A stretch of 64,000 nucleotides of DNA from Pseudomonas sp. gcc21. GTDB taxonomy: Bacteria > Pseudomonadota > Gammaproteobacteria > Pseudomonadales > Pseudomonadaceae. The stretch lies in the NCBI RefSeq assembly GCF_012844345.1, contig NZ_CP051625.1, positions 3,038,001 to 3,102,000 of the forward strand, in the 5' to 3' direction. The translations under genes were made by a program, and so were the position numbers. Positions within the stretch are counted from its first letter, which is position 1, and every line of letters begins with the position of its first letter. Shown here piece by piece: positions 11,318 to 49,691 of this stretch. The notes beneath the pieces are model-generated. The model ran no database searches. It saw only the letters and a program-made list of their open reading frames with translations, and was not told where the DNA came from.

Positions 11318-11325
11318 GGATTGAT

Positions 11326-17015: not shown

Positions 17016-17032
17016 AATCGTCCGTACTGTGG

Positions 17033-18434: not shown

Positions 18435-18449
18435 TGAGGACGATGCCAG

Positions 18450-18632
18450 CTACATGGTGACGAGAATGCCGCCACTGACCTTGAGGCCGTGGATGATCCC
18501 CTGGTTGAGGGGACCGTTGAGCACGGCGGCGCCCAGCGCGAACAGCGACGGTAGAGCCTGCGTCGTGTGCTTCCCTTGTACTAGTTGACCACTACAACAT
18601 TCCCCACAGATAATCCCCGCATAACAGAACAC
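18450..18632 (-). pseudogene. membrane-protein C-terminal relic
   Basis: A 60-codon minus-strand frame with a coding-like hydrophobic end, LPSLFALGAAVLNGPLNQG then IIHGLKVSGGILVTM. The first 25 residues look non-coding. It is bordered by the ISL3 copy, suggesting the tail of a transporter-like gene. Family not recognised; low certainty. Confidence 0.25.
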
Positions 18633-18681
18633 ACCTCCCCCTCCCCGACGTCATCGTGACCATCATCCAAGGAGGCAAGAC

Positions 18682-19950: not shown

Positions 19951-20056
19951 TCACGGAGGGCAGGCCCCCTTGCGCTCCATCGAATGCAGCATGGGGTAGA
20001 GGGTCCTGGGGCTCAGTCGATAGCCGTGGGGCAAGGTCAGCGTCGGGTACCCCACA

Positions 20057-21292
20057 TCATTCCCCAGACGCCTCCTGTGGCAGCGCAAGAGCCATCAGGG
20101 CGCTGGCCGCCACCAGAGCGGCCGAGATCCACAGGCAGGCGGCCAGGCCATACACCTGGTACACCCAACCGGAGAGTAGTGTGCCGGCGAGGCGGCCCAT
20201 GGCGTTGGCCATGTAATAGAAGCCCACGTCCATGGAGACGCCATCGGCGCGGGCATAGTGCACGATCAGGTAGCTGTGCCAGCTGGAGTTGACGGCGAAG
20301 AGCACGCCGAAGGCCAAAAGCCCCGTCACCAACCAGCCCACTTCGGCCAGGGGCAGCAGGGCCAGCAGCGCTGGCAAGCCGGCCAGGGCCAACGCCCAGA
20401 ACACGGTGACGGCCCGCGCCCCGCCCTTGACCAGGCCGGTGAGGCGCGGCGCCTGGGTCTGCACCCCACCATAGCCGATCACCCAGATAGCCAGCAGGCC
20501 GCCCACCGTCCAATGGCTCCAGCCGTGCTGGTCGTAGAGGAACACCGGCAACGCCACCACGAACCACACGTCCCGGGAGGCGAACAGGCATAGCCGCGCC
20601 GCCGAGAGCACGTTGATGGCCCGGGACTTGGAGAACACCTCGGTGAACTTGGGCTTGCGCTTCTGGCGACCCAGGTCAGCCTTGAGCCTTATCAGCGACA
20701 GCGTCAACACCGCGACGAGCATCAATGCCATGGCGATGACCGCACCGCGGAAGCCGATCAGAGTCAGCAGCAGGCCGCCGAGGAAGAAACCGGCCCCCTT
20801 CAGCGCGTTCTTGGAACCGGTGAGGATCGCTACCCAGCGGTAGAGGGCACTGCCGGCACTAGGGCTGTCCTTGGGCACCAGCACCTTGACCGCGCTCTTG
20901 GCGCTCATCTTGTTGAGGTCCTTGGCGATGCCCGAGAGCGCTTGGGCGGCCATCACCCAGGGCACGGTTAGCGCCGCGGCGGGCACCATCAGCATGACCA
21001 GCGCGACGATCTGCAGGCCGAGGCCCACGTTCATGGTGCGGTTGAGGCCCAGGCGTGCCCCCAGCCAGCCCCCCACCAGGTTGGTGACTACGCCGAAGGC
21101 CTCGTAGAAGAGGAACAGCAGCGCCACCTCCAGCGGTGAGTAGCCCAACTGATGGAAGTAGAGCACCACCAACATGCGCAGGGCACCGTCGGTGAGGGTG
21201 AAGGCCCAGTAGTTGCCGGTGATCAGCAGGTACTGGCGCACCTCGAAGGGCAGCCCCTTCAAGCGGATCCCGAGCTTCCCTGCCTCAGACAT
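20057..21292 (-). CDS. arsJ: ArsJ, organoarsenical efflux MFS transporter
   Basis: A 411-residue MFS permease with 10-12 membrane segments. The N-terminal [19 protein letters not shown] and [19 protein letters not shown] are the ArsJ signature. Known ArsJ exports 1-arseno-3-phosphoglycerate, made by the neighbouring GAPDH from arsenate and glyceraldehyde-3-phosphate, giving arsenate resistance. ATG at 21292 is preferred: it overlaps the stop of the upstream GAPDH gene by 8 bp (ATGTCTGA). It is the last gene of arsC-gapdh-arsJ. Since the GAPDH gene is frameshifted, ArsJ may lack its substrate here. Confidence 0.92.
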
Positions 21293-22315
21293 GGCCCACC
21301 TGCTCACTCCCCACCTTCATCGCCAGCTCGGCGGTCCGGTTGGCGTAGCCCCACTCGTTGTCATACCAGGCGTAGAGCTTGAGCTGGGTGCCGTTGACCA
21401 CCATGGTCGAAAGCGCGTCGATGATCGAGCTGCGCGGATCGGTACGGTAGTCGATGGAGACCAGCGGGCGCTCCTCGTAGCCCAGGATGCCGGCTAGCGG
21501 GCCCTCGGCGGCGGCCTTCAGAGCAGCATTGACCTCGTCCACCGTCACCTCGCGTTCGAGTTCGAAGACCATGTCGGTGAGCGAGGCGTTGGCCAGGGGC
21601 ACCCGCACGGCGTGGCCGTTCAGCTTGCCCTCGAGCTCGGGAAAGATGGCGGTGATCGCCTTGGCCGAGCCGGTGGTGGTGGGAATCAGGCTCATGCCGC
21701 AGGCACGGGCTCGGCGCAAGTCCTTGTGGGGGGCGTCGAGGATGGTCTGGGTATTGGTGATATCGTGGACGGTGGTCATGGAGCCGTGCGGATGCCATAG
21801 GTCTCGTGGATAACCTTGACCACCGGCGCCAGGCAGTTGGTGGTGCAGCTCGCCGCGGTGACGATGCGGTGTGTCTCAGGATCGTAGCGGTCGTCATTGA
21901 CCCCCATCACCACGTTCAGCACGCCCTCTTCCTTCACCGGCGCGCTTACCACCACCCGACCGACGCCCTGGTCCAGGTAGGCCTGCAGTTTCTCGCGGGT
22001 CTTGATCTTGCCCGAACACTCGATGACAACGTCGCAGCCCGACCAGACGCTGTCGGCCGTGGCGACCTTGGAGGTAAAAGCCAGGCGCCGACCGTCGATG
22101 AGGATGTCCGCCTCGGTGGCGTCGATTCCCTTTCCCGGTGCCCAGTGGCCATGCACCGAGTCGAACTCCAGCAGGTGGGCGAAGGTGGCAGCGTCACCGC
22201 CCGGATCGTTGATCAAGCCGATCTCGACCTCGCCCGATTCGACGGAGCGCCAGAGGCTGCGCAGCGTCAATCTGCCAATGCGTCCGAAGCCATTGATACC
22301 AATACGCAGAGTCAT
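21285..22315 (-). pseudogene. ArsJ-associated glyceraldehyde-3-phosphate dehydrogenase, frameshifted
   Basis: The N-terminal frame (22315-21776) reads GINGFGRIGRLTLRSLW (NAD fold) and reaches the active-site [15 protein letters not shown]. The C-terminal frame (21779-21285) continues [15 protein letters not shown] to [12 protein letters not shown]. At the junction the family has [12 protein letters not shown]; here one C is missing (CGCACGGC where CGCCACGGC is expected), giving GIRTAP and a stop. Together the parts have normal GAPDH length. The gene supplies ArsJ with its substrate, so the break should disable organoarsenical efflux, unless it is a sequencing error or is suppressed by slippage. 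Ribosome site GAGGT precedes ATG 22315. Confidence 0.9.
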
Positions 22316-22361
22316 AGTTACCTCGCTTTGAATTTAGTCGTGGGTCTCGATGGATCGAGGT

Positions 22362-22787
22362 TCAGCGCTCGATGTCGTCGCGCTCCTGGATCTCCAGCCA
22401 GAGCAATAGCCGATGACGGATTTCGGCCAGCGCCTGCTCGTAGGCATCCGACCGCTCGATAAGGCGAGGATCGCGGATATCCCAGTAGAGATACTCATCA
22501 CTGCTGCCCTGCCAGTCACGGCATGCCTGCTGGGCCTTGTCACAAAGCACGATCACCGAATCGAAATGCTCACCGGCGAAATCGCCCAGGGACTTGCTGG
22601 CGAGCCCCTGAGTGTCGATACCTAGCTTGCTCAAGGTAGCCAAGGTGATCTCATGGGGGCGATCCGGCTCGGAACCAGCGCTGAACGCCTCAAAGCGGTC
22701 TCCCGCCAGGTGACGTAACAGGGCTTCGCCCATCAGGGACCTGGCCGAGTTGGCATTGCACAGGAACAGAACACGTCGCTGTCTCAT
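22362..22787 (-). CDS. arsC: ArsC, low-molecular-weight phosphatase-type arsenate reductase
   Basis: A 141-residue protein of the LMW protein tyrosine phosphatase family. The P-loop C-x5-R is LCNANSARS near residues 9-17, the usual second Cys region IVLCDKAQQAC is near 89-100, and the general-acid loop is YWDIRDPRL. Such proteins reduce arsenate to arsenite with thioredoxin or glutaredoxin-like partners. ATG at 22787 is preferred over the earlier frame start at 22817 since the conserved part begins RRVLFLCNANSARS. First gene of the minus-strand ars operon, divergent from arsR. A second, unrelated ArsC lies at 23276. Confidence 0.88.
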   Translation of the reverse strand: MRQRRVLFLCNANSARSLMGEALLRHLAGDRFEAFSAGSEPDRPHEITLATLSKLGIDTQGLASKSLGDFAGEHFDSVIVLCDKAQQACRDWQGSSDEYLYWDIRDPRLIERSDAYEQALAEIRHRLLLWLEIQERDDIER

Positions 22788-22882
22788 CAGTGGGCCCTCA
22801 TTAATGCGGTTTTGCATATATGCGGATAGAGAGATGTTGTGTGCTGCTAGGACGTTCTACGCTTCTACCTTGAGTGCAGGAC

Positions 22883-22924
22883 TTGACGCACCCCCAATAA
22901 TTCCATATTTTTAGAAATATGGAA
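22883..22924 (+). promoter_or_regulatory. arsR promoter and ArsR operator
   Basis: A -35 TTGACG (22883-22888), a 17-bp spacer and TATTTT (22906-22911) form a plausible promoter for arsR. Overlapping it is a perfect inverted repeat, TTCCATATTT-TTAG-AAATATGGAA (22901-22924), which covers the -10 and the arsR start codon at 22919. ArsR proteins bind AT-rich dyads at their own promoter, so this should be the autoregulatory operator; it could also act on the divergent arsC-gapdh-arsJ unit. The predicted transcription start nearly coincides with the ATG, which suggests a leaderless message. Confidence 0.7.
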
Positions 22925-23269
22925 ATATCAAACGTAATCGAGAGCTTTTCCGCTCTGGCCCAGGAGACACGCCTGGCGATCTTTCGCCTGCTGGTACGCC
23001 AGGAACCGGATGGGCTCGCCGCCGGTGAGCTCGCACGGCAGCTATCGGTGCCCCATGCCACGATGTCGGCGCACCTAGCTGTTCTGTCGCGGGCAGGTCT
23101 GGTGGTATCCCGTCGCCAGGGGCGCTCGATCATCTATCGTGCGAATCTAAACCACATGCAGGAAGCCATCCGCTTCTTGGTGCGCGACTGCTGCGCGGGG
23201 CATCCGGAGGTGTGTGGCCCCTTGGCGGAGTCCCTAATCGGTTGCACTCCGAATCAAGATAGGAAGTGA
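22919..23269 (+). CDS. arsR: ArsR, arsenite-responsive repressor
   Basis: A 116-residue winged-helix regulator of the SmtB/ArsR family. The HTH is LARQLSVPHATMSAHLAVLSRAGLV (38-62), followed by the wing RRQGRSIIYR. The metal site is not the classical CVC in the recognition helix but a C-terminal CCAGHPEVCG (C91, C92, C99), like the As(III) site described for the Acidithiobacillus-type ArsR. ATG at 22919 is inside the operator and has no ribosome site. It opens the plus-strand operon arsR-arsC-arsH-acr3 with tight spacing (6 bp to arsC). Confidence 0.92.
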   Translation: MEISNVIESFSALAQETRLAIFRLLVRQEPDGLAAGELARQLSVPHATMSAHLAVLSRAGLVVSRRQGRSIIYRANLNHMQEAIRFLVRDCCAGHPEVCGPLAESLIGCTPNQDRK

Positions 23270-23275
23270 GACGGT

Positions 23276-23689
23276 ATGCTCCCCCAGATCTATCACAACC
23301 CGAACTGTGGCACATCGCGCAATACCTTAGCGATGATGAAGGCCTCTGGTGAATCCCCCGAGATCATCGAATACCTCAAGACGCCTCCAAGCCGGGAACG
23401 GCTTGTGGAGCTGCTGGCGATGATGGGTATCTGCCCTCGGGATCTGCTGCGGCGCAAGGGAACCCCCTACGAGTCATTGGGGCTGGACGACCCGGCTTTG
23501 ACGGATGAGCAGCTGATCGATGCCATGCTGGCGGAACCAATTCTGATCAACCGGCCGATCGTGGTGACACGGAAGGGCACCAGGTTATGCCGACCCTCGG
23601 AGACGGTGCTGGATCTCCTTGACCATCCAGTAGCGCACTTCGTCAAGGAAGATGGTGAAGTCATCCATTACCCAGGAATCGCGCCATGA
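23276..23689 (+). CDS. arsC: ArsC, glutaredoxin-coupled arsenate reductase
   Basis: A 137-residue protein of the ArsC/Spx thioredoxin-fold family. Catalytic Cys is in [12 protein letters not shown] (C11). Conserved Arg residues occur in LLRRKGTPY and in [20 protein letters not shown]. The family reduces arsenate to arsenite using glutathione and glutaredoxin. It lies 6 bp after arsR, and its last codons overlap the arsH start (ATGA). Length is normal (about 140). Confidence 0.92.
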
Positions 23690-24414
23690 GCGACATCAAG
23701 ATGTTGGCAGACCTCCCCCATATTGATCCTTCGCAGTTGCGTTCCATCGACACGACACTGTTAGCAGGCCCCGAGGCCCCCCAGCATGCGCCACGTATTT
23801 TAGTGCTCTACGGATCCCTGCGTGAACGCTCCTACTCACGTTTGGTTGCCGAAGAAGCCGGGCGGCTGCTGCGTTGGTTCGGATGCGAGGTGCGAACTTT
23901 CAACCCCAGCGGCCTGCCCTTGCCGGATGATGCGGGGGCCGACCACTCCAAGGTTCAGGAGTTACGCGAGTTGGCCGAGTGGTCGGAAGGCATGCTGTGG
24001 GTCAGTCCCGAACGCCATGGTGCCATGACGGCCATCATGAAGGCCCAGATCGACTGGATTCCGTTGTCGCTGGGCGGTATTCGCCCGACCCAAGGCAAGA
24101 CCCTGGCCGTGATGCAAGTTTCAGGTGGTAGCCAGAGCTTCAATGCAGTCAACCAGATGCGCATCCTTGGTCGCTGGATGCGCATGGTGACGATCCCCAA
24201 TCAATCTTCGGTGCCGAAAGCTTTTACCGAATTCGACGACGATGGGCGCATGAAGCCCTCCCCCCTGTACCTTCGCATAGTGGATGTTTGCGAGGAGCTG
24301 ACCAAGTTCACCCTGATGATCCGGGGACGAAGCGACTACTTGACAGACCGCTACTCTGAGCGAGTGGAAAGCGCAGAAGACGTTTCCCGGCGCGTGAACC
24401 AATGTGCCATCTGA
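23686..24414 (+). CDS. arsH: ArsH, NADPH-dependent organoarsenical oxidase
   Basis: A 242-residue flavodoxin-fold FMN protein. Conserved blocks: [16 protein letters not shown] (FMN phosphate site near 44-60), [16 protein letters not shown], and [21 protein letters not shown]. ArsH oxidises trivalent methylarsenicals and aromatic arsenicals with NADPH. The start overlaps the arsC stop by ATGA; a 13-bp gap follows before acr3. Complete. Confidence 0.93.
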
Positions 24415-24427
24415 CAGGAGTCACACT

Positions 24428-25495
24428 ATGACCGTACTCCAGGAATCCCAGGCCCCCAGCGCCTCCGAGGGCATGGGTCTCTTCGAGCGCTATCTCTCGG
24501 TGTGGGTGGCGTTGGCTATCGTCGTCGGGGTGCTGCTCGGCCAGTTTGCCCCGGCGGTACCTGAGACGCTGTCACGCTTCGAATATGCCCAGGTATCGAT
24601 CCCGGTGGCGATCCTGATCTGGGCGATGATCTTTCCTATGATGGCGGAAATCGACTTCGCCGCCGTACTCGGTGTGCGCCGCCAGCCCAAGGGGCTGGTC
24701 ATTACCACCTCGGTGAACTGGCTGATCAAGCCTTTCACCATGTTCGCCATCGCCTGGTTCTTCCTGATGGTGGTGTTCCGTCCGCTGATTCCGGAGCACT
24801 TGGCGAGCCAATACCTGGCCGGCGCCATTCTGCTGGGGGCCGCCCCCTGCACCGCCATGGTCTTCGTGTGGAGCTACCTGACCCGCGGCGACGCCGCCTA
24901 CACCCTGGTGCAGGTGGCCCTCAACGACCTGATCATGCTATTCGCCTTCGCGCCCATCGTGGTCTTCCTGCTCGGCGTGTCGAACATCCAGGTGCCCTGG
25001 GACACCGTGGCGCTATCGGTCTTTCTCTATATCGTGATTCCGCTGGCGGCCGGCTACCTGACCCGGCGTACCCTGATCGCCCGCCGCGGCAGCGAGTGGT
25101 ATGACAACGTCTTCATGAAGAAGGTGGGGCCGATCACCCCCATCGGGCTGATCATTACTCTGGTGCTGTTGTTCGCCTTCCAGGGCGACGTGATCTTGGC
25201 TAACCCGCTGCATATCGTGCTGATCGCCATCCCGCTGATCATCCAGACCTTCCTGATCTTCTTCATCGCCTACGGCTGGGCCAAGGCGTGGAAGGTGCCC
25301 CACAACGTGGCGGCCCCCGGGGCGATGATCGGTGCCAGCAACTTCTTCGAGCTGGCCGTGGCCGCTGCCATCGCCCTATTTGGCCTGCATTCCGGCGCGG
25401 CGTTAGCCACTGTGGTAGGGGTGCTGGTGGAGGTGCCAATCATGCTCATGCTGGTCAGAATCGCCAACAACACACGGGACAGATTCCCCGAATAA
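24428..25495 (+). CDS. acr3: Acr3-type arsenite efflux permease
   Basis: A 355-residue integral membrane protein of the BART superfamily with ten hydrophobic segments. The family Cys lies in GAAPCTAMVFVW (near residue 141), a residue needed for arsenite transport in characterised Acr3. RYLSVWVALAIVVGVLLG opens the first helix. It exports As(III) using the proton gradient. ATG at 24428 follows AGGAG by 8 nt; an earlier in-frame ATG at 24404 lies inside arsH and is unlikely. It ends the operon and is followed by a terminator hairpin. Confidence 0.92.
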   Translation: MTVLQESQAPSASEGMGLFERYLSVWVALAIVVGVLLGQFAPAVPETLSRFEYAQVSIPVAILIWAMIFPMMAEIDFAAVLGVRRQPKGLVITTSVNWLIKPFTMFAIAWFFLMVVFRPLIPEHLASQYLAGAILLGAAPCTAMVFVWSYLTRGDAAYTLVQVALNDLIMLFAFAPIVVFLLGVSNIQVPWDTVALSVFLYIVIPLAAGYLTRRTLIARRGSEWYDNVFMKKVGPITPIGLIITLVLLFAFQGDVILANPLHIVLIAIPLIIQTFLIFFIAYGWAKAWKVPHNVAAPGAMIGASNFFELAVAAAIALFGLHSGAALATVVGVLVEVPIMLMLVRIANNTRDRFPE

Positions 25496-25502
25496 TAAAA
25501 TC

Positions 25503-25527
25503 GGCCCGTGTTCCTGTAACACGGGCC
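25503..25527 (+). terminator. hairpin terminator after acr3
   Basis: GGCCCGTGTT-CCTGT-AACACGGGCC is a perfect 10-bp stem 8 bp after the acr3 stop. No T run follows, so termination strength is uncertain, but position and stem quality fit the end of the ars operon. Confidence 0.7.
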
Positions 25528-26034
25528 TCAATGCGTGATCTGAAAGTCAACGCCTAGCCGAGAAGCTACGTGATCAGGGTAGCCTGGCGAGCCATCACCC
25601 AGCGTAGTCCCTCTTGTCCTGGCCAATTCCACAGCTTCCCGAGCATGAACCAGGTAGTCCGGTTCTCCTTCGCTTTATCAACGGCGGCCAAGTAAGCGGC
25701 TATGGCTTCAAGTGTGGTTATGTAGGGCCTATCAACCAGTTAATCCGTTGTGAGTTTTGCTTGTCGCCCACCTTTCAATTTCGCATAGCAACCAGATAAT
25801 CCGGATACCCCGTACTGTTCCGCTCATGGGAAGTTAGCCTCAATCTTGACCAAAGCTTGTTGTTTACCGAAATCGATATCCTACGTCAGGGGGCAGGCGA
25901 TCAACAGCCTTTGGCCGTATCCAGCCTCTTGCAACGATTCGGTGGATCGTATCTAGGATGATGAAAGCCAGTGACAGCACATAGCCAGCTTGTTAGCCTC
26001 ACCAGATGACGGAGGTTACGAGTCCTGGTGATCG
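25528..26034. other. intergenic with a relic C-terminus on the minus strand
   Basis: About 500 bp without an intact gene. On the minus strand, a frame ending with TAG at 25566-25568 reads TTLEAIAAYLAAVDKAK then WFMLGKLWNWPGQEGLRW over 55 codons, with a stop upstream and no start. It looks like the tail of a decayed gene of unknown family. The last 200 bp upstream of 26035 show no clear promoter. Confidence 0.35.
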
Positions 26035-27570
26035 ATGCATGCAAATAAGCTGAACGCAGAGAACGACGGTGACACTGGCGGTGTGCTTACGGAGATAGTG
26101 GGCAGTTCGCCGTGCGCGACCACCGTGCAACAGATTGAACGAATACTCGGGATCGATCGCGATTTCCCTGCGGCGTTGAATCTGGTTGAGAAGCTGCTGG
26201 GTATTCTTCAAGTAATACCTGTTAAAGATGGATCCGTGTTGGAGTGGGTTCGAGCGCTCGAGTCCGTCCAAGACGCCGGTAAGCTTAGGAAATATGATCT
26301 GTCCTGGACGCGGCTAGCGGCCACCAGCCTTGCAGGCAACCCCCTGGGTGGGAAATTCAAGCGCTATCCCTTGCCAGCGTTTTTGCTGCAGGAGCCCCTG
26401 GCCGAACTTGGTGAACAAGCCAACCTGATACATCGCCTCTTTCTGGAAGTTGCGATTCAACAGAAAACCTTTAGGGGTATTCAAGCGATTGCGGATGAGC
26501 TGCGGAAGTTGATCGCTATCAGCACTCCAAAATCCAGCATGGGTCGATTGCCTACAGACGTGTCTACTGACTGGTCCGCTTGGGCAGAATATCTTGCAAA
26601 TCTGCCTGCTAACGATGCCCTTTCAGGAATGCTCAACAAGCTTTTGAGACTGCGTACCTCCAGTAGCTCTCCGACATCCAGGCAAACGCCTCCAGTTTCG
26701 CTTATCTCTCAAACCGACTCTAATCCGCCCTCTGGTGTTGGTATCAGTGTTGGTCCTACGTACCGCACTCTGGTCACCGAGCCTGGCGACAGTCAAACGG
26801 CTGAACCTCCAAAATATGTGGATTTGCACCTGACTCCACAAGAGGAAGAAGAGGATGAGCCGACGTCTGAACAGGAGGTTGATGCCCAGTGCCGCGAGAC
26901 ACGTCATTGGATTTCCCGTCATCAACGCCTAACGCCAAACGATTCCGGTCGGTTAACCCCAATCGAGCGTCGCTGGCTCGCATCCCGGCTACGAGAGCTC
27001 ACGGTAAGCGAGGATGTCGGCCTGCGATCAGGCGCTGGCATTGTGGCGCTCATGTATGTCACCGGAATGCCCCTAGATGACGTGCTGCAGGCTGCTGTTG
27101 GGCCAGAAGGAACTTTTGACGTCGGCGGAGCGTATCGACGGACGATTCGCCTGCCGAGCAATGCTTACACTCCGAATGCTGATGTGGCGGAGCAGTTTCT
27201 GCCCAGAGAAACGACGTTAGTACTCCAGTTGCCCGATATGGTGACGAACTGGATGAACGCGAACGTTCAGCATCAAGACTGTGCGTTGGCGCAAGCTTTG
27301 GGTGTTGAGCTGAATAAGGCAAAAGAAGATGTCGATAAGGTCATGGAATGCCTTCGTGCTGGGGGCCGTTACACACGGATCCGCCGCGAACGCATTCCTG
27401 CAGCGTTGGCCATTGAACTGAACCTGCGGTATCGCGATTTTGGAGTTGTTCACCATTTGGCGTCCGGCCCTGATCAGGTTGCGCCGATGATCAGTTATTA
27501 CGTGGTGCATTTCATTGACGATTTGAAGCACCGATACACGGAGGTTACTGAGGATATGCTGCGAGTCTAA
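26035..27570 (+). CDS. large protein with degenerate tyrosine-recombinase-like C-terminus
   Basis: A 511-residue protein of no family I can name. Residues 1-210 are helical and Leu-rich. Residues 215-300 are a low-complexity linker (Ser/Thr/Pro, then EEEEDEP). Residues 310-505 have the outline of a tyrosine-recombinase catalytic domain: LMYVTGMPLDDVLQAAV sits where TGxRxxE should be, and RRERIPAALAIELN...VVHHLASG...PMISYYV resembles the HxLRH/GH/Y region, but the catalytic residues are not conserved. Its TAA overlaps the next ATG (TAATG), so it is translated together with the 1258-residue recombinase-like protein, perhaps as a subunit. Ribosome site is weak (GGTG). Confidence 0.6.
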   Translation: MHANKLNAENDGDTGGVLTEIVGSSPCATTVQQIERILGIDRDFPAALNLVEKLLGILQVIPVKDGSVLEWVRALESVQDAGKLRKYDLSWTRLAATSLAGNPLGGKFKRYPLPAFLLQEPLAELGEQANLIHRLFLEVAIQQKTFRGIQAIADELRKLIAISTPKSSMGRLPTDVSTDWSAWAEYLANLPANDALSGMLNKLLRLRTSSSSPTSRQTPPVSLISQTDSNPPSGVGISVGPTYRTLVTEPGDSQTAEPPKYVDLHLTPQEEEEDEPTSEQEVDAQCRETRHWISRHQRLTPNDSGRLTPIERRWLASRLRELTVSEDVGLRSGAGIVALMYVTGMPLDDVLQAAVGPEGTFDVGGAYRRTIRLPSNAYTPNADVAEQFLPRETTLVLQLPDMVTNWMNANVQHQDCALAQALGVELNKAKEDVDKVMECLRAGGRYTRIRRERIPAALAIELNLRYRDFGVVHHLASGPDQVAPMISYYVVHFIDDLKHRYTEVTEDMLRV

Positions 27571-30500
27571 TGAGTACGTCAACGGTTACGGGTTTCTTTC
27601 CGGAGTCTCAGGTGATTTCCAGCTTACCTGAGATCAGTCTGACGCGTTTGCAGTCAGCCATTCATGGTAACGGGAGCCTTGCGGAACGGCATAACGCATT
27701 CACTGACTATTGCCTTGCGCTGCTTTTTTGCTGCACAGGACATCGTGCAGTTAAAGACCCCTTCAGCGAGCTAAAACACTTTGATTTTGACCGAGGGTTA
27801 CTACTTATTTGCGATAAGGTCAGCGATGAGTCGCGGGCTTGGCGGCTGGTTTCCCTACCAGATACGGCGGTAGAACAAGTAAGTGTTTATCGTAATTATT
27901 TGCGCCTGTTGGCATCTCAACTTGAGGGGGGCTCGCCTCTTGGTGAATTGCCGGCGCTGATCTGGGATGTATCTCAGGGCAACGCGCGGATACCGTTCTT
28001 TTTCTATCTGCAGGAAAGTTGTGACGGTTGGGAGGCGGTCACGCCGGCAACTCTCTCAAAGCGCTGGCAAGACCGCTGGACATTGCCGGTGAATTTTCTT
28101 CGCCATGTGATGGCAGACACGCTGTTGCATCTTACTCGTCGGGCTGACTGGGTCAGCATCCAGCTAGGGCATGCCGACGGAGTCGATCATCCATTTGGAG
28201 CGACATCGACAAAACCAGCGTTAAATACCTTGGGCCAGATCCGTCCTTACTTGGAAGAGGGGTTAAAGAAAATTGGATGGACAGTGGCCCGATCACCGTT
28301 GCATGGCTCTCGAGTCAGACACCGGCCTGTAAAGCGGTCACGGCTTAATACCTCTTCAGAAGCGTTGTTTGGCTACCAGCGACGTGAAGCTGTGCGTAAG
28401 GGAAAACGTTCAATCGCTGCAACATTCTTCAGAGAGCTGTGGAGTGAGCAGTTTCCCACAGGTGCTGCTGTGAACCGGACAGCGGTCCAGCGCATAGTTG
28501 AACAGATTATTATTCAGGCACCAACTAGAGGACACTCGGTAAATTGGTGTCTCAGGCTTCTCTACAGTCACCTGCGTTCCCGTCCAGGTGGGCTAGCAAT
28601 ACTCCGCCAAATTGCGCGATATCGTCAGATAGAAATTGAGCCCTCGCCATTTCATGCCGGTTCACTCATCGACTATCAGGCAGGTCAGGGAATTAGAGCC
28701 GCATATTTGGGCTACCTAGAGCAACAGGGGAAGAATCAGGCCTCATTCGATGTGCATGTTCGGCTTGCGGAGATTGTGGTCAGCGCGGCTATGTTTAGTG
28801 GAATCGCTAATGCGGACAGGCTGAAAGTCCTGGGGAGCGCTCTGCTGGCGCAAACCTACCTTCTTAAGCGCTCCGTGTTTGTCGATGTGCCCTTAGGTCA
28901 TGGAGCAGTCTTCAGGTGGTTTCCTGATCCGGTATCGCAAAAACTCATCTATGGTTTGTTCCGAGCCGAAACCGCAGGCCAGAAGATACAAGAAACCAAG
29001 ACGAGAAAAGCTTTGAACTCGCTGGTTTGCGAGCTTGCGGGTTCAGCTGGCGGGTGTCCTTATGATCGTTTGGTCCGTGTCTCGAGAGCGGTCTCGGGAA
29101 TAGAAATGCCGGGCTACATTTCGTCTTGTCTCAGTGGTGTTATACCGGCCGTATCGCTTCCGTTGCCTCAATGGGTGCGAGTGGTAACGGGTAAATCGTT
29201 AACGTCTGGCGACGAACCAGCCGCAAATCAGCCAGCCAAGTCCGATAACTGGACACCCGTTATAAAAAATTCGAAACGGCAACACACTGCCGGGGAGGGA
29301 CGGGCTTTTTTACGGGAGTTTCGTCGCCTGATTTCTGCTGCCCGGAACACTAAGCGTACTGGTAACCAGCTAGCGCGTACCCGTAGCAAGCGTGAGCTCG
29401 TGAAGACGTTGCAGCTAGCCTGCGAAAGTTCAGGCTGGTCCGCCCTTCAGATGATGCTCGCAGGCTGGACGGTCCATCTATGTCGGCATGGAACGCGGAG
29501 CAAAAAAGGTCTGGCCTATTCCACAGTGGAAAAATACTCCGTGCTCGTCGCATCAAGGCTGATTCCTGTGAGTGCAGATCTTGATGTCTATGCCCTGGAT
29601 GAGGTGGCGTACGAAGAGCTATATCTGCGTGCTGTTGAACGTGAAGAGCCCAAGCGCCGATTTGAATTAGCCTGCCGATTACGCGAAATGCATGCTTTCT
29701 TTCAAGAAGTTTATTTGATGGAAGATCTGGACTGGTCCGCCATTATGGGAGCCGCTGGTGGCCGTGCCCAGACCCGTTTTGCGGAAGCAAATATCATCAC
29801 CTCTGCGGAATATCGGCGTGCATTGACTGCGTTAGTCGACGACGCGTCTCTGGGGGAGCGTCGCCGATGGCAGTATGCTGGGCTTTTACTTCTTGGGTTT
29901 CGGTTCAACCTGCGTTTTGGAGAGGCGCTACGATTGCGTTTTACCGACGTGCAGCGCGACGGGGAACAGGTTTATGTTTGGGTGCACAACTCTGTTTTCG
30001 CTGAGACAAAATCACATGCGGGTGTTCGGGTTGTACCTCTGATAGAACGACTGGATGCGCTGGAAACACGCGTTTTGGACCGGTTATTGGCTGCAGGCGA
30101 ATCCGACTTTGATGATAATCCCGCTGCTATGCTGATGGCTGAGCATTCTGGGGCAGCGGAGCTGATTGATCGAGCGGAGGCTGGGCGTGTTCTAAACGGT
30201 TTGCTCCGCCGAGTGACGGGTGATAGCAGTAGCCGCTTTCATCATCTGCGCCATGGTTGGGCGACACGAGCGGTGGCGTCTCACATCGGCTTGGTAACCC
30301 CCGGTTTTTGTGAGCAGCTATCCGAAGCTGTCTGGCCAGAATTTTATGGTAGTGACGCGGGGTTTCCGCTGCGCAGTATTGCCGTGGCTGCTGGTCATGC
30401 CAATGAGAGCACTACGCTGGGTAGTTACACACACTGCGCTGATCAATTGGTGTCAGATTATTTACCCGAGCCCCAGCTCTCGGATCACACGGTGGCTTAT

Positions 30501-31346
30501 GCAGAGCAGATAGCCTACGCCACAGTCCGGACACGGCGCCGAGGCTCGGGTAGGGCATCTGAGGGACGCCTGCCTGCGATACCGAAGCCTGCGGTTGCTA
30601 CTGGGACGCCCCAGGTTGCCACCCTCTCAGGCCTCTTATGTGAGTCGCTGAAGGCTGGGCCTCTTAGTCTAACGGATGTTGACATGCTGCTGCGCAGACT
30701 CCGGAATAGCGGGCAGCCCGTAGATGTAGTAGCGAGAACGTTGGGCCTGAACATACCAGCGTCTAGGTGCGCGGTAGACCGCGCGTTGAGCTTGGAGGTT
30801 CGAACCGGATATGACGGCTATCGGCTGGCAACGCGTTCTGACGATTTTTTAGCTTGGGCCGTTAGCGACAGAAAAGCTCGGCAATTCAAGCGTGAGGATA
30901 ACAATGTAATCGAGCGCCTTAGAGTACTTGATCGCCAGATAAGAATGTCTTCGCTACCAGAGTTGGATGAATTATTGTCTGGATTGCGCGCATTGGAGGA
31001 GACAATTGATGCCAAGAGTGGTGACTACTATGTGGTCCGGGTAGAGCAGTTGAGCTCAATAGCAAAGCTCGCAGCACTACTTGATGCCCGCGTCAGCGCG
31101 GCAGTATCAGCCGTGATAGACACCTGTGAGCTGCGAGAATTGTTGCAGGTCAATGGTGTGGAATGGCGTCATTGGAACACTAGGCGGGCCGGACTAAGGC
31201 TCAGCCTGACCCCTACCAGCGGGCCGAAGCGTACGTTGCAGCGCCTGCTACTGATAATTGCGTTGGCGATTCCCGATAAGTATCAAACAGCTGCTGTTGT
31301 GGATCTCAAGTCTGATGACAGTGCTGCTAGCTCTGCCGTTTCCTGA
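27570..31346 (+). CDS. giant tyrosine recombinase with two catalytic-like domains
   Basis: A 1258-residue protein. The second domain (about 640-970) has a full tyrosine-recombinase set: R782 in NLRFGEALRLRF, H891/R894 in FHHLRHGWAT, H943 in AAGHANESTTL, and Y953 in GSYTH. The first domain (about 40-215) looks like a decayed copy: TGHRAV (R59), FLRHVMADTLLHL (R178), IQLGHADG, but no Tyr. The C-terminal 270 residues are helical and Arg/Leu-rich with no known motif. Ordinary integrases have 300-450 residues, so this is about three times normal size. It is translationally coupled to the 511-residue gene, suggesting a complex. Probably recombines its own element; a defence role cannot be excluded. 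Confidence 0.7.
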   Translation: MSTSTVTGFFPESQVISSLPEISLTRLQSAIHGNGSLAERHNAFTDYCLALLFCCTGHRAVKDPFSELKHFDFDRGLLLICDKVSDESRAWRLVSLPDTAVEQVSVYRNYLRLLASQLEGGSPLGELPALIWDVSQGNARIPFFFYLQESCDGWEAVTPATLSKRWQDRWTLPVNFLRHVMADTLLHLTRRADWVSIQLGHADGVDHPFGATSTKPALNTLGQIRPYLEEGLKKIGWTVARSPLHGSRVRHRPVKRSRLNTSSEALFGYQRREAVRKGKRSIAATFFRELWSEQFPTGAAVNRTAVQRIVEQIIIQAPTRGHSVNWCLRLLYSHLRSRPGGLAILRQIARYRQIEIEPSPFHAGSLIDYQAGQGIRAAYLGYLEQQGKNQASFDVHVRLAEIVVSAAMFSGIANADRLKVLGSALLAQTYLLKRSVFVDVPLGHGAVFRWFPDPVSQKLIYGLFRAETAGQKIQETKTRKALNSLVCELAGSAGGCPYDRLVRVSRAVSGIEMPGYISSCLSGVIPAVSLPLPQWVRVVTGKSLTSGDEPAANQPAKSDNWTPVIKNSKRQHTAGEGRAFLREFRRLISAARNTKRTGNQLARTRSKRELVKTLQLACESSGWSALQMMLAGWTVHLCRHGTRSKKGLAYSTVEKYSVLVASRLIPVSADLDVYALDEVAYEELYLRAVEREEPKRRFELACRLREMHAFFQEVYLMEDLDWSAIMGAAGGRAQTRFAEANIITSAEYRRALTALVDDASLGERRRWQYAGLLLLGFRFNLRFGEALRLRFTDVQRDGEQVYVWVHNSVFAETKSHAGVRVVPLIERLDALETRVLDRLLAAGESDFDDNPAAMLMAEHSGAAELIDRAEAGRVLNGLLRRVTGDSSSRFHHLRHGWATRAVASHIGLVTPGFCEQLSEAVWPEFYGSDAGFPLRSIAVAAGHANESTTLGSYTHCADQLVSDYLPEPQLSDHTVAYAEQIAYATVRTRRRGSGRASEGRLPAIPKPAVATGTPQVATLSGLLCESLKAGPLSLTDVDMLLRRLRNSGQPVDVVARTLGLNIPASRCAVDRALSLEVRTGYDGYRLATRSDDFLAWAVSDRKARQFKREDNNVIERLRVLDRQIRMSSLPELDELLSGLRALEETIDAKSGDYYVVRVEQLSSIAKLAALLDARVSAAVSAVIDTCELRELLQVNGVEWRHWNTRRAGLRLSLTPTSGPKRTLQRLLLIIALAIPDKYQTAAVVDLKSDDSAASSAVS

Positions 31347-31417: not shown

Positions 31418-32233
31418 CTAGTCAACCAGCGAGCGTTGGACAGGAATGTCTATTGTTCGGATTATCTCTTGCAGCGTTCCGCCCCGCATTTTGCGTGCCC
31501 CGTTCTCTAGCTGGTATGAAGGAGTCACACGCAGCTCGACAGATTTGCGGTATAACTGAGCCTCAAGCAATCGTTCCCTGAAATGTTCACTCAGCGGAAT
31601 GTGCAGCTGGCTGCACTGACCGTCAGGCCCGCGGAGCAGCATGGTCCTGGTCTTATCATTTACCGCTAATACCTCTCCGCTTAGCACTAGGTCCTGGCTG
31701 TCCTCAAGGATCTCACTAGATCCGCGCTTCGGGACGAAGCTGAAGCTGGTAGCGTCGTCCGCCCCAGCCCTTAATTCACACGGTGGCAAGTGGGTTCTCA
31801 AAAGGGTTGCTAGTTCAGCTATCTTTTCTGGAGCTCGGAAGATAGATTCGGAGCTCTGTGCTGGATCGCCTGAGCTGATTGAGATTAGCTCCGCAGGGGC
31901 AGGAGACGCTTCGAGTTCTCTTAGGACCTGAAGCGCGGCGTTAATCTGTTGCAGGATCTCGTTAGCACTGCTTGATCCCAAGGGCAATTCGGGATGTTCG
32001 AAGATTGCAAAAAGGGCGATTTCTACCCGTTTTCCATCGGTTCGCTCCAGAGCCTCTAGGCGAACCTGGTTGCCTACTTTGTGTTGAAGCTTCGCCGCTA
32101 CAGTCTCAAAACTTTTTAAATAACTGCGCTTTTCCGCATTAGACACCGGCCAAGTGATGTGCGAATCCTGCTTTTCAGTCTTAGCGATAAAACCATAGAA
32201 AAGTTCGACCCTATTAATACTATTAGTTTTCAT
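31418..32233 (-). CDS. unknown protein (271 aa) convergent with the giant recombinase
   Basis: A soluble 271-residue protein. Residues 1-90 have a mixed alpha/beta composition, 95-165 are an Ala/Leu helix region (IFRAPEKIAELATLLRTHL), and 170-260 are beta-rich (LVLSGEVLAVNDKTRTMLL, then SVELRVTPSYQ), possibly an OB- or barrel-like fold. ATG 32233 has AAGGAC upstream. It ends 72 bp from the recombinase stop, and its AT-rich upstream region differs from its neighbours. No catalytic motif recognised; function unknown. Frequent pairing with the recombinase genes would be worth testing. Confidence 0.55.
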   Translation of the reverse strand: MKTNSINRVELFYGFIAKTEKQDSHITWPVSNAEKRSYLKSFETVAAKLQHKVGNQVRLEALERTDGKRVEIALFAIFEHPELPLGSSSANEILQQINAALQVLRELEASPAPAELISISSGDPAQSSESIFRAPEKIAELATLLRTHLPPCELRAGADDATSFSFVPKRGSSEILEDSQDLVLSGEVLAVNDKTRTMLLRGPDGQCSQLHIPLSEHFRERLLEAQLYRKSVELRVTPSYQLENGARKMRGGTLQEIIRTIDIPVQRSLVD

Positions 32234-32767
32234 CGGAAGTCCTTGTCATGAAGCCAGTTGATAACTTATTCCTCTGTTTGGAAATGTTCAAATGTTTGTT
32301 TTGTATCATTAAATCGAATGTTTATTGATTGTTTGTGTTTCGCGTTTTTATAACGTTATGAATTTTAAGCCGTTTTGTATTGCGCTGTTGCGAGATTTTT
32401 TTGTTTGCTATCGTATAATGATATTCGATGATATGTCTTTCGAGTGTTTTTATAGGGTTTTGTTTATTTCGGAATCCAAAATAGGGAAATATCGCCTCAC
32501 TGAGGATTTCCAGTCAGGGGGAGTGTTAAGTATCAAGAAGGGAAGGTGGTGCTGGTTCTTTACTCAGACGCCGGTGTTGTAGGCAAATTTTCTGAACAAT
32601 AGCGAGACGCGCTGTTGCTGTTCGCCATGAAGTATGTGCGTACCTTGCCGGCTACCACTGGCGTTCAGTACTAGCGAGACAACAGCGCACTCTGATTCGC
32701 TGTATCAATGACGCTGCGCTGGCTTGGGCGTCGTCTACTATGAAAAATGGATGGGGGTTAGGATCGA
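32234..32767. other. AT-rich intergenic region
   Basis: About 530 bp, clearly AT-rich from 32270 to 32480 against a GC-rich background. An 85-codon plus-strand frame (32325-32582) is Phe- and Cys-rich without a ribosome site and does not look coding. The left part must hold the promoter of the 271-residue gene (minus strand). The composition would suit a replication or recombination region, together with the repeat at 32768, but this is inference. Confidence 0.35.
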
Positions 32768-32820
32768 ATGTATAGCGATGTATAGCGGATTTTGCTATAC
32801 ATCGCTATACATCGCTATAC
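32768..32820. repeat. 10-bp-periodic inverted repeat (TATAGCGATG units)
   Basis: A 19-bp arm ATGTATAGCGATGTATAGC (32768-32786) and its perfect complement (32794-32812) are separated by 7 bp, and a fifth GCTATAC follows at 32814-32820. The basic GTATAGC unit recurs every 10 bp, one helical turn. More TATAGC-like copies continue into 32832-32838. It is downstream of the minus-strand gene at 32825. It may be an iteron array, operator or cruciform; no T run suggests a terminator. Confidence 0.7.
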
Positions 32821-32824
32821 TTTA

Positions 32825-32989
32825 CTATATTTGGCTATAAACCGGCGGCGAGATGTCGTCTGTTAAAAGATCGTAAAGGGGGCAGTGTTGGGTCTGGCTC
32901 GCCAAGAAAGGGCGGTAGCGCATCACCTGACCGGTTATCGTTTCAAAATCCGCTAGCAGCGACCCCGCCAAACCATTACGAATCTCCAT
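32825..32989 (-). CDS. small unknown protein (54 aa)
   Basis: ATG 32989 has a good ribosome site (GGGAGTGAGG, about 4 nt away) and runs 54 codons to TAG. The product begins MEIRNGLAGSLLADFETITG, then QVMRYRPFLASQTQ and ends DDISPPVYSQI. It has no signal or membrane segment. It overlaps the end of the 20-codon frame upstream. Not a family I recognise. The stop codon lies at the edge of the TATAGC repeat array. Confidence 0.4.
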   Translation of the reverse strand: MEIRNGLAGSLLADFETITGQVMRYRPFLASQTQHCPLYDLLTDDISPPVYSQI

Positions 32990-33146: not shown

Positions 33147-33545
33147 TTAACAGATGCTCATGATGGTCTGTAGTGAGGTGGTTTTGCGCTTTCCTTCTCC
33201 GACCAGTATGTAAACAGTGTTAGTTGTCTCGAAGATGCAGGGCGGGGTGAACCTTAGCAGCGGCGTGGTTCTTACCCAGTTGCCTGGCGCGAAGCGATGA
33301 GTGCTATCGAACATGACATCGTGGGCATACACCATGACTGGTTTGAGATCCTGCTGTTGAAGATCGTCGGCAATTTTCTCGGCCACATTCAGCTCAGCCC
33401 AGATCCAATCGCGGACAATCCGGAACGGCTTGTAGTCGGTGTGGGCCCTAACCAGCATTTTGGCTTCTTCCAGCGTCAGATTGCCCCCTTGCATGGGCTC
33501 GCCCTCGCCGTACAGCAGATCAGTCAGTTCGTTCAGCTCGTTCAT
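33147..33545 (-). CDS. DUF6957-like protein
   Basis: A 132-residue soluble protein starting MNELNELTDLLYGEGEPMQG, with ALVRAH-type helix (EEAKMLVRAHTDYKPFRIV), a strand-rich centre (PVMVYAHDVMFDSTHRF), then GNWVRTTPLLRF and TNTVYILVGEGKR. This matches what I remember of the DUF6957 family found on pseudomonad islands. ATG at 33545 has AAGGAAA about 6 nt upstream; the longer frame to 33587 is less likely. Function unknown. Confidence 0.6.
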   Translation of the reverse strand: MNELNELTDLLYGEGEPMQGGNLTLEEAKMLVRAHTDYKPFRIVRDWIWAELNVAEKIADDLQQQDLKPVMVYAHDVMFDSTHRFAPGNWVRTTPLLRFTPPCIFETTNTVYILVGEGKRKTTSLQTIMSIC

Positions 33546-33731
33546 ATTGGTTTCCTTTTGAGTTCTTAGCGACCAGCGGAGGCTCAAAGGCCTACCTATG
33601 CTGTACGTATATCCAGTATATGTACTGGCTAGCCGGGTTGTCTGTCAATGCTGGGCCGAAGCCCTGGCCAGTACGTGTGGGCATAAAGAGTGGCTCAGGG
33701 CTTGCTTAGTAAGCCCTGAGCATCGACGGGT

Positions 33732-34661
33732 TCATGGAGGTCCGGGCAACCAGTAGGTGCAGCCGGGGCCCGCACCTTCGAAGCGGGCGAAAGAGTGCCA
33801 GTCCGGTTTTCCACCGAAAGCCTGCTGCCGATTGTTGGCCGATGCGCTCATGACATCGGCTTGTTTTATCGTAAGGGCGATCGGCATCATGGGCCGTTGC
33901 TGGCGAGGACGTATCATCCAGTCAAACAGATAGCGTAGCGCATTCGCACCATCGGCCCAGACGCGGTCCAGGCGAGTTAAGGCTGGGACGATTAGCTCCA
34001 TCCCAAGCAGCTCATGGCTGATTAGGTAGCCTGTTTCAGTGCGACGCCCGTCCGCAGAAAAGCAGCACACCTTACCTAGGTCATGCAGCAAGCCAGCGAC
34101 AGCCGCTAGCCAGCGTTCATGCTCGGCAAAACTACTGCTAACCGCATACACCGATCGCGCCACTTCCAGGCTGTGCTGAGCTAGTCCTCCGGTATGACTG
34201 TGGTGATGATCGCGGCTAGCAGGAAGACTGAAAAATTTGCAGCCAATAGAGGGTTGCCCCAGTACCTGATATACAAAGGCCTTAAGCGAAGGATAGGGAC
34301 AGGGTTGAAGCCATTGCTCCAAAGCCATCACGTTTTCCACCGAGCCGACGAGGCTGGCCGGCAAATGGGCTAGCGATTGAAAGCCGTCCGCAGTGATTAT
34401 TTGGCCGTCGGAACCGAACAGGTAATCGCCGTGGCGGTTCACCAGAATGGAGACAGCAATCAGGTCGCCAACAGGCCATTTTCCAGGATGATCCTGAAGT
34501 TCCAGCAGCACTTCATGGCGGCCGTCCAGGTTCTCGATGCTGAGAAAGATTGCCGAGCCAAGCGGCGATACCTGATACGCCTGCTGAGGCATCAGGCAGC
34601 CAGTCAGCCTGAAGAGCTCAGGCGTTTTGCTCTGCTTTACAGCGGGCATTGGGTGAATCAT
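33732..34661 (-). CDS. HD-domain TraI_2-like protein
   Basis: A 309-residue protein of the TraI_2/HD group found at the integrase end of integrative elements. HD motifs: SRDHHHSHTGGLAQHSLEVA near 160-180 and LLHDLGKVC with H193/D194. The N-terminal 110 residues are beta-rich, with an OB-like look (EVLLELQDHPGKW...VSILVNRHGDYLFG). Full conjugative relaxases of MOBH type are longer, so this is a stand-alone HD hydrolase-like version. Start ATG 34661 overlaps the upstream TGA (ATGA). It is third in a minus-strand set: excisionase, integrase, 82-residue protein, this gene. Confidence 0.7.
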   Translation of the reverse strand: MIHPMPAVKQSKTPELFRLTGCLMPQQAYQVSPLGSAIFLSIENLDGRHEVLLELQDHPGKWPVGDLIAVSILVNRHGDYLFGSDGQIITADGFQSLAHLPASLVGSVENVMALEQWLQPCPYPSLKAFVYQVLGQPSIGCKFFSLPASRDHHHSHTGGLAQHSLEVARSVYAVSSSFAEHERWLAAVAGLLHDLGKVCCFSADGRRTETGYLISHELLGMELIVPALTRLDRVWADGANALRYLFDWMIRPRQQRPMMPIALTIKQADVMSASANNRQQAFGGKPDWHSFARFEGAGPGCTYWLPGPP

Positions 34662-34906
34662 GAGGCGGCCCCCCATTGATTGAGCGTGCGCTCCAGCAGC
34701 TCCAGGAGATGTGGCAATACAGCGTGGCCGCACTCTTCTTCGAATTGCGGCAGGGTTTCTCTTACCCAGGTTTCCAGTGCCGCCAGATTGCTCGATTCAG
34801 TTCCCCGACCAATTAGAAATACGAGTGCATCGCCCTCGGGGATTTGCAGGGCTGCCTGCATCGCACTGGCCAGTCGGCGGCAGGTGTTGCGCGAGAACTC
34901 ATGCAT
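34658..34906 (-). CDS. small protein (82 aa) between integrase and HD protein
   Basis: An 82-residue helical protein, MHEFSRNTCRRLASAMQAAL to LLELLERTLNQWGAAS. It overlaps the integrase stop by 8 bp (ATGCATGA) and the next gene by ATGA, so it is translationally coupled on both sides and very probably real. Small genes in this place are common in integrase-TraI_2 modules, but I know of no function. Confidence 0.65.
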   Translation of the reverse strand: MHEFSRNTCRRLASAMQAALQIPEGDALVFLIGRGTESSNLAALETWVRETLPQFEEECGHAVLPHLLELLERTLNQWGAAS

Positions 34907-36101
34907 GGCTGTGCTCCTCGTCTGATGGCAGGGGAGTGTTCAGTGTCTGAATCAGCAGGCGTTCCATTGCTGACCCATCGCGCCTGGTCAGGTTAGGGAC
35001 GTAGCGGGAATAGACCCGAAAAAGCATTTCAGTGGTGGTGTGGCCCATTTGTCTGGCAATCCATTCCGGAGCCTCACCGGCGGCCAACCACAGCGTGGCC
35101 GCTGTATGCCGCGTCTGATAGGGCCTGCGTTTGCGTAGCCCCAGATGCCGGAGCAGTGGATACCAAATTCGCTGGGTGACGTTGCGGTGCACGAGCGGTG
35201 TGCCGTTGCGACTGCAGAAAACATACTCACAATCGCCGGTGGCCTGCTTCTGCGCCTGCAAAGCTTCAAATACTGGTCCGGACATATCGATGCTACGGAA
35301 CGAGCCATCGTTTTTGGTGTAGACCAGCTCCTCCTTCACAAGCGACTGGCGAACCAGGATCTGCCGTCGCTCAAAATCCACGTATTGCCACTGCAGTCCG
35401 TCGATCTCGCCGGTACGCATTCCGGTGAAAAACCGCACGGTGTAATAGTTGCGGTAGTCCTCGCGTACCGTTTGAAGGATCAGGCGCACCTCTTCCACTG
35501 TAAACGGTTCTACATCGGTTCTTGGCACCTTGAGAGACTTGATGCCCTGATAGGGTGAGGTAAACTCATGACGGTCGGCTGCTTCGTTAAGGATCATGCG
35601 CAAAGGCGTCATGATGTGGTTGATTCGCTCTGCTGACAGAGGTTTGCCTTTACCGTTTCTGACTTTGGCGAGCTGGGAACGGAACGACAAAATATCTGCC
35701 TTGGTGATGGAGCCGACCTCCTTTTCACCAAACTCTGGTTTCAAATAGGCGCGCAGGGTGGCTGCCACCGTGTCGATGTGCGAACGTCGCCACTGAGTCT
35801 GCATTTCCCCAAACCAGGTATCGGCGAAATCGTTGAATAGCGGCGTTGCGGGTTGTTTTACAACTGTCTTGAGCGCATCGACCTCGCTGAACTTGCGAGC
35901 ATTGTTACTCCCGGGGAAGTAGCGCGCGTACTCAAACGAGCCAAGGGTGATTTCGGCCTCAATCTTTTTCAGGATTGTCTCAAGCTTGCGGCGGTTGGCA
36001 GGAGTGTCATCTAGCGCTGTTTGCTCTCGACAACGTTTGCTCCTATATCGGAAGTCGAAGAACAATTTCCCGGTCTCCGGCCGGGCTACGATCCTACCCA
36101 T
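34899..36101 (-). CDS. tyrosine site-specific integrase (DUF3596 arm-binding type)
   Basis: A 400-residue phage/island integrase. An N-terminal arm-binding part (GRIVARPETGKLFFDFRYRSKRC, DUF3596-like) is followed by a SAM-like core-binding domain and a catalytic domain with FFTGMRTGEIDGLQW, YQTRHTAATLWLAAG, QMGHTTTEMLFRVYSRYV. All catalytic positions (R, HxxR replaced by TRH, GH, Y) are in place. ATG at 36101 is chosen since the domain starts there; the frame to 36167 overlaps the excisionase-like gene. It is probably the integrase that moves all or part of the block at the tRNA-Arg, but it lies 13 kb from tRNA copy 2, so later insertions or accretion are implied. Confidence 0.88.
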   Translation of the reverse strand: MGRIVARPETGKLFFDFRYRSKRCREQTALDDTPANRRKLETILKKIEAEITLGSFEYARYFPGSNNARKFSEVDALKTVVKQPATPLFNDFADTWFGEMQTQWRRSHIDTVAATLRAYLKPEFGEKEVGSITKADILSFRSQLAKVRNGKGKPLSAERINHIMTPLRMILNEAADRHEFTSPYQGIKSLKVPRTDVEPFTVEEVRLILQTVREDYRNYYTVRFFTGMRTGEIDGLQWQYVDFERRQILVRQSLVKEELVYTKNDGSFRSIDMSGPVFEALQAQKQATGDCEYVFCSRNGTPLVHRNVTQRIWYPLLRHLGLRKRRPYQTRHTAATLWLAAGEAPEWIARQMGHTTTEMLFRVYSRYVPNLTRRDGSAMERLLIQTLNTPLPSDEEHSHA

Positions 36102-36330
36102 TGCACACCCCTCCGCGTGCCATCGGCACTTTGAGGTTGTTTTCATCCGAATACCCGCCCATGTCACGTTCTATGGCGTCCCAGATGTACAAAATCTTGC
36201 GTCCCCCAAAGGGCCGGATGTAGTGAGTGCCTTCAAGCAGGACGCTGTCCTTGAGTCGTTCGCGGATAGTTCGCGAATCGTATTTGATGCGTGCAGCCAA
36301 CTCGTCAGTAGTAAGGTATAGAGTATTCAT
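36094..36330 (-). CDS. AlpA/excisionase-like DNA-binding protein
   Basis: A 78-residue protein with an N-terminal winged-helix of the MerR/AlpA kind: YLTTDELAARIKYDSRTIRERL, then LLEGTHYIRPFGGRKILYIWDAI. It overlaps the integrase start by 8 bp, so the two are coupled, as expected for a recombination directionality factor. It is divergent from the Xre gene at 36465, with about 130 bp of AT-rich DNA between that should hold both promoters. Confidence 0.75.
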   Translation of the reverse strand: MNTLYLTTDELAARIKYDSRTIRERLKDSVLLEGTHYIRPFGGRKILYIWDAIERDMGGYSDENNLKVPMARGGVCNG

Positions 36331-49510: not shown

Positions 49511-49587
49511 TGGCGCACCCGACAGGATTCGAACCTGTGACCCCCGCCTTCGGAGGGCGGTACTCTATCCAGCTGAGCTACGGGTGC
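49511..49587 (-). tRNA. tRNA-Arg(CCG), copy 2
   Basis: A complete cloverleaf on the minus strand with the same acceptor, D and anticodon arms as copy 1 (anticodon CCG, loop CTCCGAA), encoded CCA (TGG at 49511-49513), and T arm ACAGG/CCTGT in place of ACTGG/CCAGT. It lies at the right end of the accessory block. Its own 5' flank has no obvious promoter, but one exists upstream of the tRNA half at 49650-49691, from which it could be read through. Confidence 0.95.
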
Positions 49588-49649
49588 ATATTGGTAAAGC
49601 GAGGCCATTCTGACCTTTAGCCGCATCGTGGCACAAGAGGCTGAGTATT

Positions 49650-49691
49650 GCCTTCGGAGGGCGGTACTCTATCCAGCTGAGCTACGGGTGC
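49650..49691 (-). pseudogene. 5' half of tRNA-Arg(CCG), displaced
   Basis: 42 bp identical to the 5' half of the two tRNA genes (acceptor 5' strand, D arm, anticodon arm), ending exactly at the anticodon stem sequence GCCTTCGGAGGGC. The 3' half is missing. It is what remains of a tRNA gene after integration at the anticodon loop. Confidence 0.9.

Follow-up and report, generated by a model that had tools for sequence, protein, structure and literature searches.

The question raised by this locus is what two coupled genes encoding three recombinase-like domains do, and whether they act as one system. The genes lie in a 64,000-nucleotide stretch of the genome of Pseudomonas sp. gcc21 (contig NZ_CP051625.1), which is referred to here as the window. 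An earlier note on this DNA had proposed that the 511- and 1258-residue products (ORF511 and ORF1258) together hold three recombinase-like domains, and this proposal was borne out: the domains, denoted B1, B2 and C, were all identified, with one complete active site among them. The features on which the analysis draws are as follows.

1110..1186, minus strand: tRNA-Arg(CCG) copy, at the end of an adjoining 9.2-kb insert
1198..1560: island left end, with the anticodon-loop core GCCTTCGGAGGGC at 1198-1210 and an end sequence in common with the G208 island
17031..25810: ISL3-family insertion (transposase PF01610, E 2.9e-66), with 8-base target copies CGTACTGT at 17023-17030 and 25811-25818
26035..27570, plus strand: ORF511, a helical N-terminal region (about 1-210), then the degenerate recombinase-like domain B1 (about 295-511), with Tyr489 retained
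27570..31346, plus strand: ORF1258, comprising B2 (1-240; R59, K83, R178 and H201 retained, without Tyr), MID (about 265-560), the catalytic domain C (about 575-985) and a C-terminal region (1025-1258)
31418..32233, minus strand: convergent accessory gene (271 aa), conserved at 70% identity next to the nearest copy
32234..32520: AT-rich tract, 34.5% GC; the block in common with the nearest copy stops within it at 32318
32767..32839: copies of the decamer GCTATACATC, some inverted and some direct, outside the block in common with the nearest copy
33147..33587, minus strand: DUF6957 gene (PF22275, E 2.6e-40), also beside the nearest copy (shared block 33148-36321)
33732..34733, minus strand: HD-domain protein (PF01966, E 1e-7)
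34899..36167, minus strand: conventional tyrosine integrase with arm-binding, central and catalytic domains (PF12167, E 4.1e-24; PF00589, E 2.2e-17)
49511..49662: island right end, with an intact tRNA-Arg(CCG) at 49511-49587, a spacer, the core at 49650-49662 and then the 5' half of the native tRNA gene

Domain C of the array matches Pfam PF00589, and B2 is recombinase-like by profile (XerA, E 3.9e-4; XerD, E 2.6e-3). Fold comparison gave B1 of ORF511 a recombinase-like fold and not an unrelated one, which the earlier note had named as the outcome that would count against it. B1 and B2 match each other at E 1.3e-4 in profile comparison with a clean B2 alignment and at E 0.14 once that alignment contained one full-length row; window-type rows alone gave nothing. 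Residues 1-213 of ORF511 had no match in profile comparison, and a PDB sequence search with the ORF511 family returned nothing at E values up to 10. A profile of MID (265-560) matched designed helical repeats only and had no link to the B1, B2 or C profiles, and the structure-match list was filled by domain C. MID was also considered as a fourth recombinase fold, for which its secondary structure looked suggestive but the profiles gave no support. NCBIfam and Pfam gave the array proteins no name beyond Xer/PF00589. Gamma-mobile-trio islands are characterised by GmtX, GmtY and GmtZ, and none of these names occurred among the NCBIfam matches of the array, although NCBIfam may hold no such models.

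Residue roles were assigned by alignment with the catalytic domain and from knowledge of the family, and only C has a complete active site, its catalytic R-K-H-R-H-Y set being present at all six positions in 17 of 17 aligned rows. B1 and B2 are both incomplete. In B2, none of the 22 aligned rows departs from Arg I (R59), Lys (K83), Arg II (R178) or His III (H201); 21 rows carry Asn at the second His position and one carries Ser, and the best candidate for the Tyr position holds Tyr in seven, Phe in five and other residues in ten, with no Tyr in any of the five window-type rows. B1 of the window is without Arg I and His III, and Tyr489 is the sole strictly invariant column among the diverged rows (17/17), being seen by eye in the three left-out rows as well. 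These losses are complementary, the pocket having gone from B1 with its Tyr kept and the R-K-R-H set having been kept in B2 with its Tyr gone, and they raise the possibility that B1 and B2 are halves of one active site, with the Tyr of B1 donated in trans to the B2 pocket. Flp monomers donate tyrosine in trans to one another. The shared site is a doubtful proposition; if it were true, the array would have two working sites (B1+B2 and C), with asymmetry built in, and each of the two window-type genes would encode one part of the shared site, which would account for how strictly they are coupled.

When the fetched loci were scanned with profiles, the array appeared in three gene partitions. The window type, with B1 in one gene and B2-MID-C in the next, was found at five distinct loci (the window, L005, L006, L007 and L008), and the homologues of the pair adjoin each other at all five, contrary to the second outcome that the earlier note had set against its proposal, namely homologues that are never neighbours. 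A further 14 loci are split into B1-B2 and MID-C, with a first gene of 738-856 aa and a second of 972-1137 aa, and at three loci the array is a single chain of 1804, 1826 or 1852 aa. At two loci (L004 and L052) the array is shorter, C being preceded by B2 only. L046 has the C part only yet clusters with the single chains in a C-domain tree, and is thus probably a broken or rearranged copy. In this tree (36 rows), a branch supported at 100/100 separates the 15 window-type rows from the others, and the single-chain rows, with L046 among them, cluster at 96/92; the duplicates L035, L036 and L044, rows of less than 800 aa, and P0001, P0005, P0008, P0009 and P0011 were omitted. Row set A6 omitted L041, L043 and L044, and row set A4 omitted L044, L045 and L046. 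B1 of ORF511 aligns collinearly with the split proteins (296-494 with 307-489; E 1.4e-5) and matches the single chains at E 1.7e-3 only, its homology across families resting on profile comparison. Two families of proteins of about 190-230 aa account for the gene immediately upstream in 10 of the 14 split loci. The idea that a recombinase trio had been rearranged into two polypeptides thus stands in part: the gene borders within the array vary among relatives, as though they had moved, but a three-gene ancestor was not seen.

The domain order was also recovered in sequences outside profile building, namely plasmid trios from Vibrio cyclitrophicus, Acinetobacter towneri, Acinetobacter sp. ANC 7974 and Dinoroseobacter shibae, in which B1 (E 1.4e-23 to 5.2e-6), B2 and C follow one another in four of four. 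A plasmid search with ORF1258 gave three weak matches, one with the short-B2 type gave none, and one with the split-type C protein gave 224 records, 218 of them from Acinetobacter; the phage records searched for the array contained no match. Many mobilizable Acinetobacter plasmids (these 218 records, for example L103 and L104) carry a related giant recombinase that is annotated only as an integrase or as hypothetical. The arm-type integrase adjoining the trio of L104 had no BLAST match to the window integrase at 1e-5.

Against the nearest copy (HGW-Gammaproteobacteria-11, L005; 95% protein identity), dN/dS was 0.54 for ORF511, 0.28 for ORF1258 and 0.41 for the 271-aa gene. By part, the values from the same pair were 0.20 for B2, 0.46 for MID, 0.12 for C, which is the lowest, and 0.53 for the C-terminal part. 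With dN/dS below 1 throughout in this one pair, the parts of the array are under purifying selection.

The island that contains the window copy spans 48.4 kb (window 1198-49650), sits at tRNA-Arg(CCG) and carries defence cargo; cores occur in the window at 1145, 1198, 49546 and 49650. The right end has the split tRNA end and the empty site in a relative by which tRNA-targeting islands are recognized. Of 37 genus genomes, 36 contain partial matches to the chromosomal sequence beyond the junction at 49650, and in G181 the site is empty, an intact tRNA-Arg gene joining both flanks (89% over 1354 bases from window 49649 onward; 85% over 649 bases at genome 3025554-3026199). Between the flanks defined in this way lie 3.8 kb of unexplained sequence, the 9.2-kb insert (3030015-3039198) and the 48.4-kb island. 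The left end matches that of the G208 island (L074) at 88% over 357 bases and is present in 2 of 37 genus genomes. In both the window and G208 the operon is about 24-25 kb inside the left end, so that the window alone does not show the array to serve that end, which the integrase could serve instead. Compared with the left end of L007, that of the window is only marginally similar (score 65, with up to 59 in 100 shuffles), whereas the left end of the array-free 9.2-kb neighbour (G000 3030015-3039198, L082) is similar with a higher score of 96. By reading, the frames of this neighbour comprise an IS3 transposase and otherwise no recombinase; it may be moved in trans.

The 48.4-kb setting, with the integrase and HD gene beside the array, also speaks against the suggestion that the pair, the 271-residue gene, the AT-rich tract and the repeat form one small element, as does the position of the repeat outside the shared block; a programmed DNA rearrangement system, proposed as the other option, was not supported. 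The only match of the 271-aa family was to the C-terminus of a 299-aa gene of L008 (E 5e-4); neither the small genes upstream of the split forms nor the convergent 283-292-aa genes of the single-chain forms were linked to it. A further near-copy of the decamer GCTATACATC is located at 36376, upstream of the integrase gene. The island cargo includes a complete QatABCD defence system (window 9368-14305). A 2028-aa NTPase (window 1750-7836) matches Avs1b in part, over residues 288-605 (E 1.3e-18), and a Type I restriction methyltransferase (window 36841-38334) is followed by large frames to about 49.2 kb. The ISL3 insertion carries arsenic-type genes, named by reading. At L034, a cargo gene (16690-17895) encodes a metallophosphatase joined to a permuted YpsA SLOG domain.

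Junctions of the same kind recur in relatives. An anticodon-loop core lies upstream of the operon in 15 of the 22 operon starts read, and in 12 of the 22 the operon is flanked by one half of a tRNA gene interrupted at its anticodon loop: part of tRNA-Asp(GTC) at L003, L040, L042, L043, L045 and L047, of tRNA-Arg(CCG) at L007, L038 (a short piece), L044 and L050, and of tRNA-Met(CAT) at L048 and L049. At L039 the operon start is preceded by an intact tRNA-Arg followed by a spacer. A core-like motif that has one mismatch and is not joined to a tRNA half is present at L006 and L051, and the pattern used found no core at the operon starts of L005, L008, L037 and L052; the search covered the operon starts other than those of L002, L041 and L053. 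ARAGORN found intact tRNA genes at right ends (L083-L087, L099 and L101) and none in the left ends scanned (L088-L092, L094 and L100). Both ends lie on one contig in G065 (27.0 kb), G018 (26.8 kb), G153 (71.1 kb), G066 (77.0 kb), G034 (26.0 kb) and G169 (121.7 kb), the last of which may contain more than one island. Array and integrase are both inside all seven end-paired islands, that is, these six and the window island.

The association with the integrase extends across the family. Among 398 family genomes, with the array counted by profile and the integrase clade at E 1e-100 or better, the array occurs in 35, the clade in 36 and both in 31 (Fisher p 1.3e-36, kinship ignored). An array signal without the integrase was found in G123, where the match is a doubtful 321-aa frame, and in G073, G165 and G202; the integrase without an array signal was found in G037, G045, G118, G180 and G190. 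The two are within 10 kb of each other in 22 of 26 same-contig pairs, a count that 33 array places entered and from which four integrase-free genomes were omitted. The HD protein is present in 18 of the 398 genomes, with the integrase in all 18 and the array in 15.

On this evidence, ORF511 and ORF1258 probably form one functional array (B1, B2 and C) that serves as a recombination module of islands at tRNA anticodon loops, a reading of moderate confidence. The array would assemble into an asymmetric complex before binding the attachment site, with C as the cleaving domain and B1 and B2 at the partner half-sites, and would act with the integrase in excision or integration. The exchange might perhaps involve a single strand, a possible outcome as in the strand-biased circularizing elements (SEs) described in PMC10214605.

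The array might instead be a separate element that has nested, as cargo, within or close to integrase islands and has no part in their movement. The block in common with G208 (16797-17030 plus 25810-32318) is 94% identical and the integrase block 76%, which points to separate histories of the two parts, and the array is 62 kb from the integrase in G153 and 26 kb from it in G169. Such nesting is nevertheless unlikely in view of the integrase being present in 31 of the 35 array genomes, the 12 operon starts, of 22, at which the array adjoins a left end cut within a tRNA gene and the location of both modules inside every paired island (7/7). It is more improbable still that the array controls the island, as a DNA-binding regulator or directionality factor made of recombinase folds: two of its three domains are without a complete active site and the phage repressor SroF is present among its fold matches, whereas C keeps its six catalytic residues in 17 of 17 rows and has the lowest dN/dS. 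Least probable is a decaying remnant without present function, since the ISL3 insertion that splits the operon left flank in the window (the site is uninterrupted in L005) and the shortened second gene of L007 are set against dN/dS below 1 throughout, reading frames that are open in both the window and L005, and a conserved gene overlap.

As a recombination module, the array has its nearest described counterparts, among the systems compared, in GInts and SEs. GInts are ginABCD mobile islands with three tyrosine-recombinase-like units encoded by separate genes plus ginD, the full motif in two units, the operon at one end, variable cargo and insertion in a pseudomonad ABC-transporter gene (PMC5385486). 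The array resembles them in its three units, the incomplete motif in some, the operon at an island end and the variable cargo. By this description it is set apart in having, instead of consecutive ginA, ginB and ginC, two genes in the window and two recombinase genes in the split relatives, the RHRHY motif complete in C only, tRNA anticodon loops as sites and a partner integrase. The genes of SEs are intA, tfp, intB and srap; two of the recombinases are complete, Tfp is without the motif and exchange of one strand is reported (PMC10214605). SEs share with the array several recombinase-fold proteins in a coupled operon, some without the full motif, and differ, as described there, in this gene layout and in their second complete recombinase. 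Recombinase-in-trio (RIT) elements likewise have three recombinase units side by side, but in three separate genes in a row, each a recombinase (PMC10214605 and PMC8138268), where the array has two. The tRNA-gene islands of Islander carry one tyrosine integrase and split the target tRNA, the gene being regenerated by island sequence (PMC4383910); the array islands follow the same pattern and additionally carry the giant array. No paper on giant or fused tyrosine recombinases or on such an array was found by phrase search in the open-access literature, which, together with the NCBIfam and Pfam names, is consistent with the earlier view that no family with this layout has been described. The array layout is real and rare, and is best placed with the multi-recombinase islands.

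Tyrosine recombinases work as tetramers of like subunits. In a natural fused array, whose domains keep a fixed order and include a single complete site, the asymmetry of the synapse is built in, and the roles of active and inactive subunits would become testable; the shifting gene borders of the array, with two cut places or one chain, are natural experiments. Current annotation leaves such array proteins as hypothetical. Their co-occurrence with the integrase clade points to a class of islands with two recombination modules and with defence and metal-resistance cargo.
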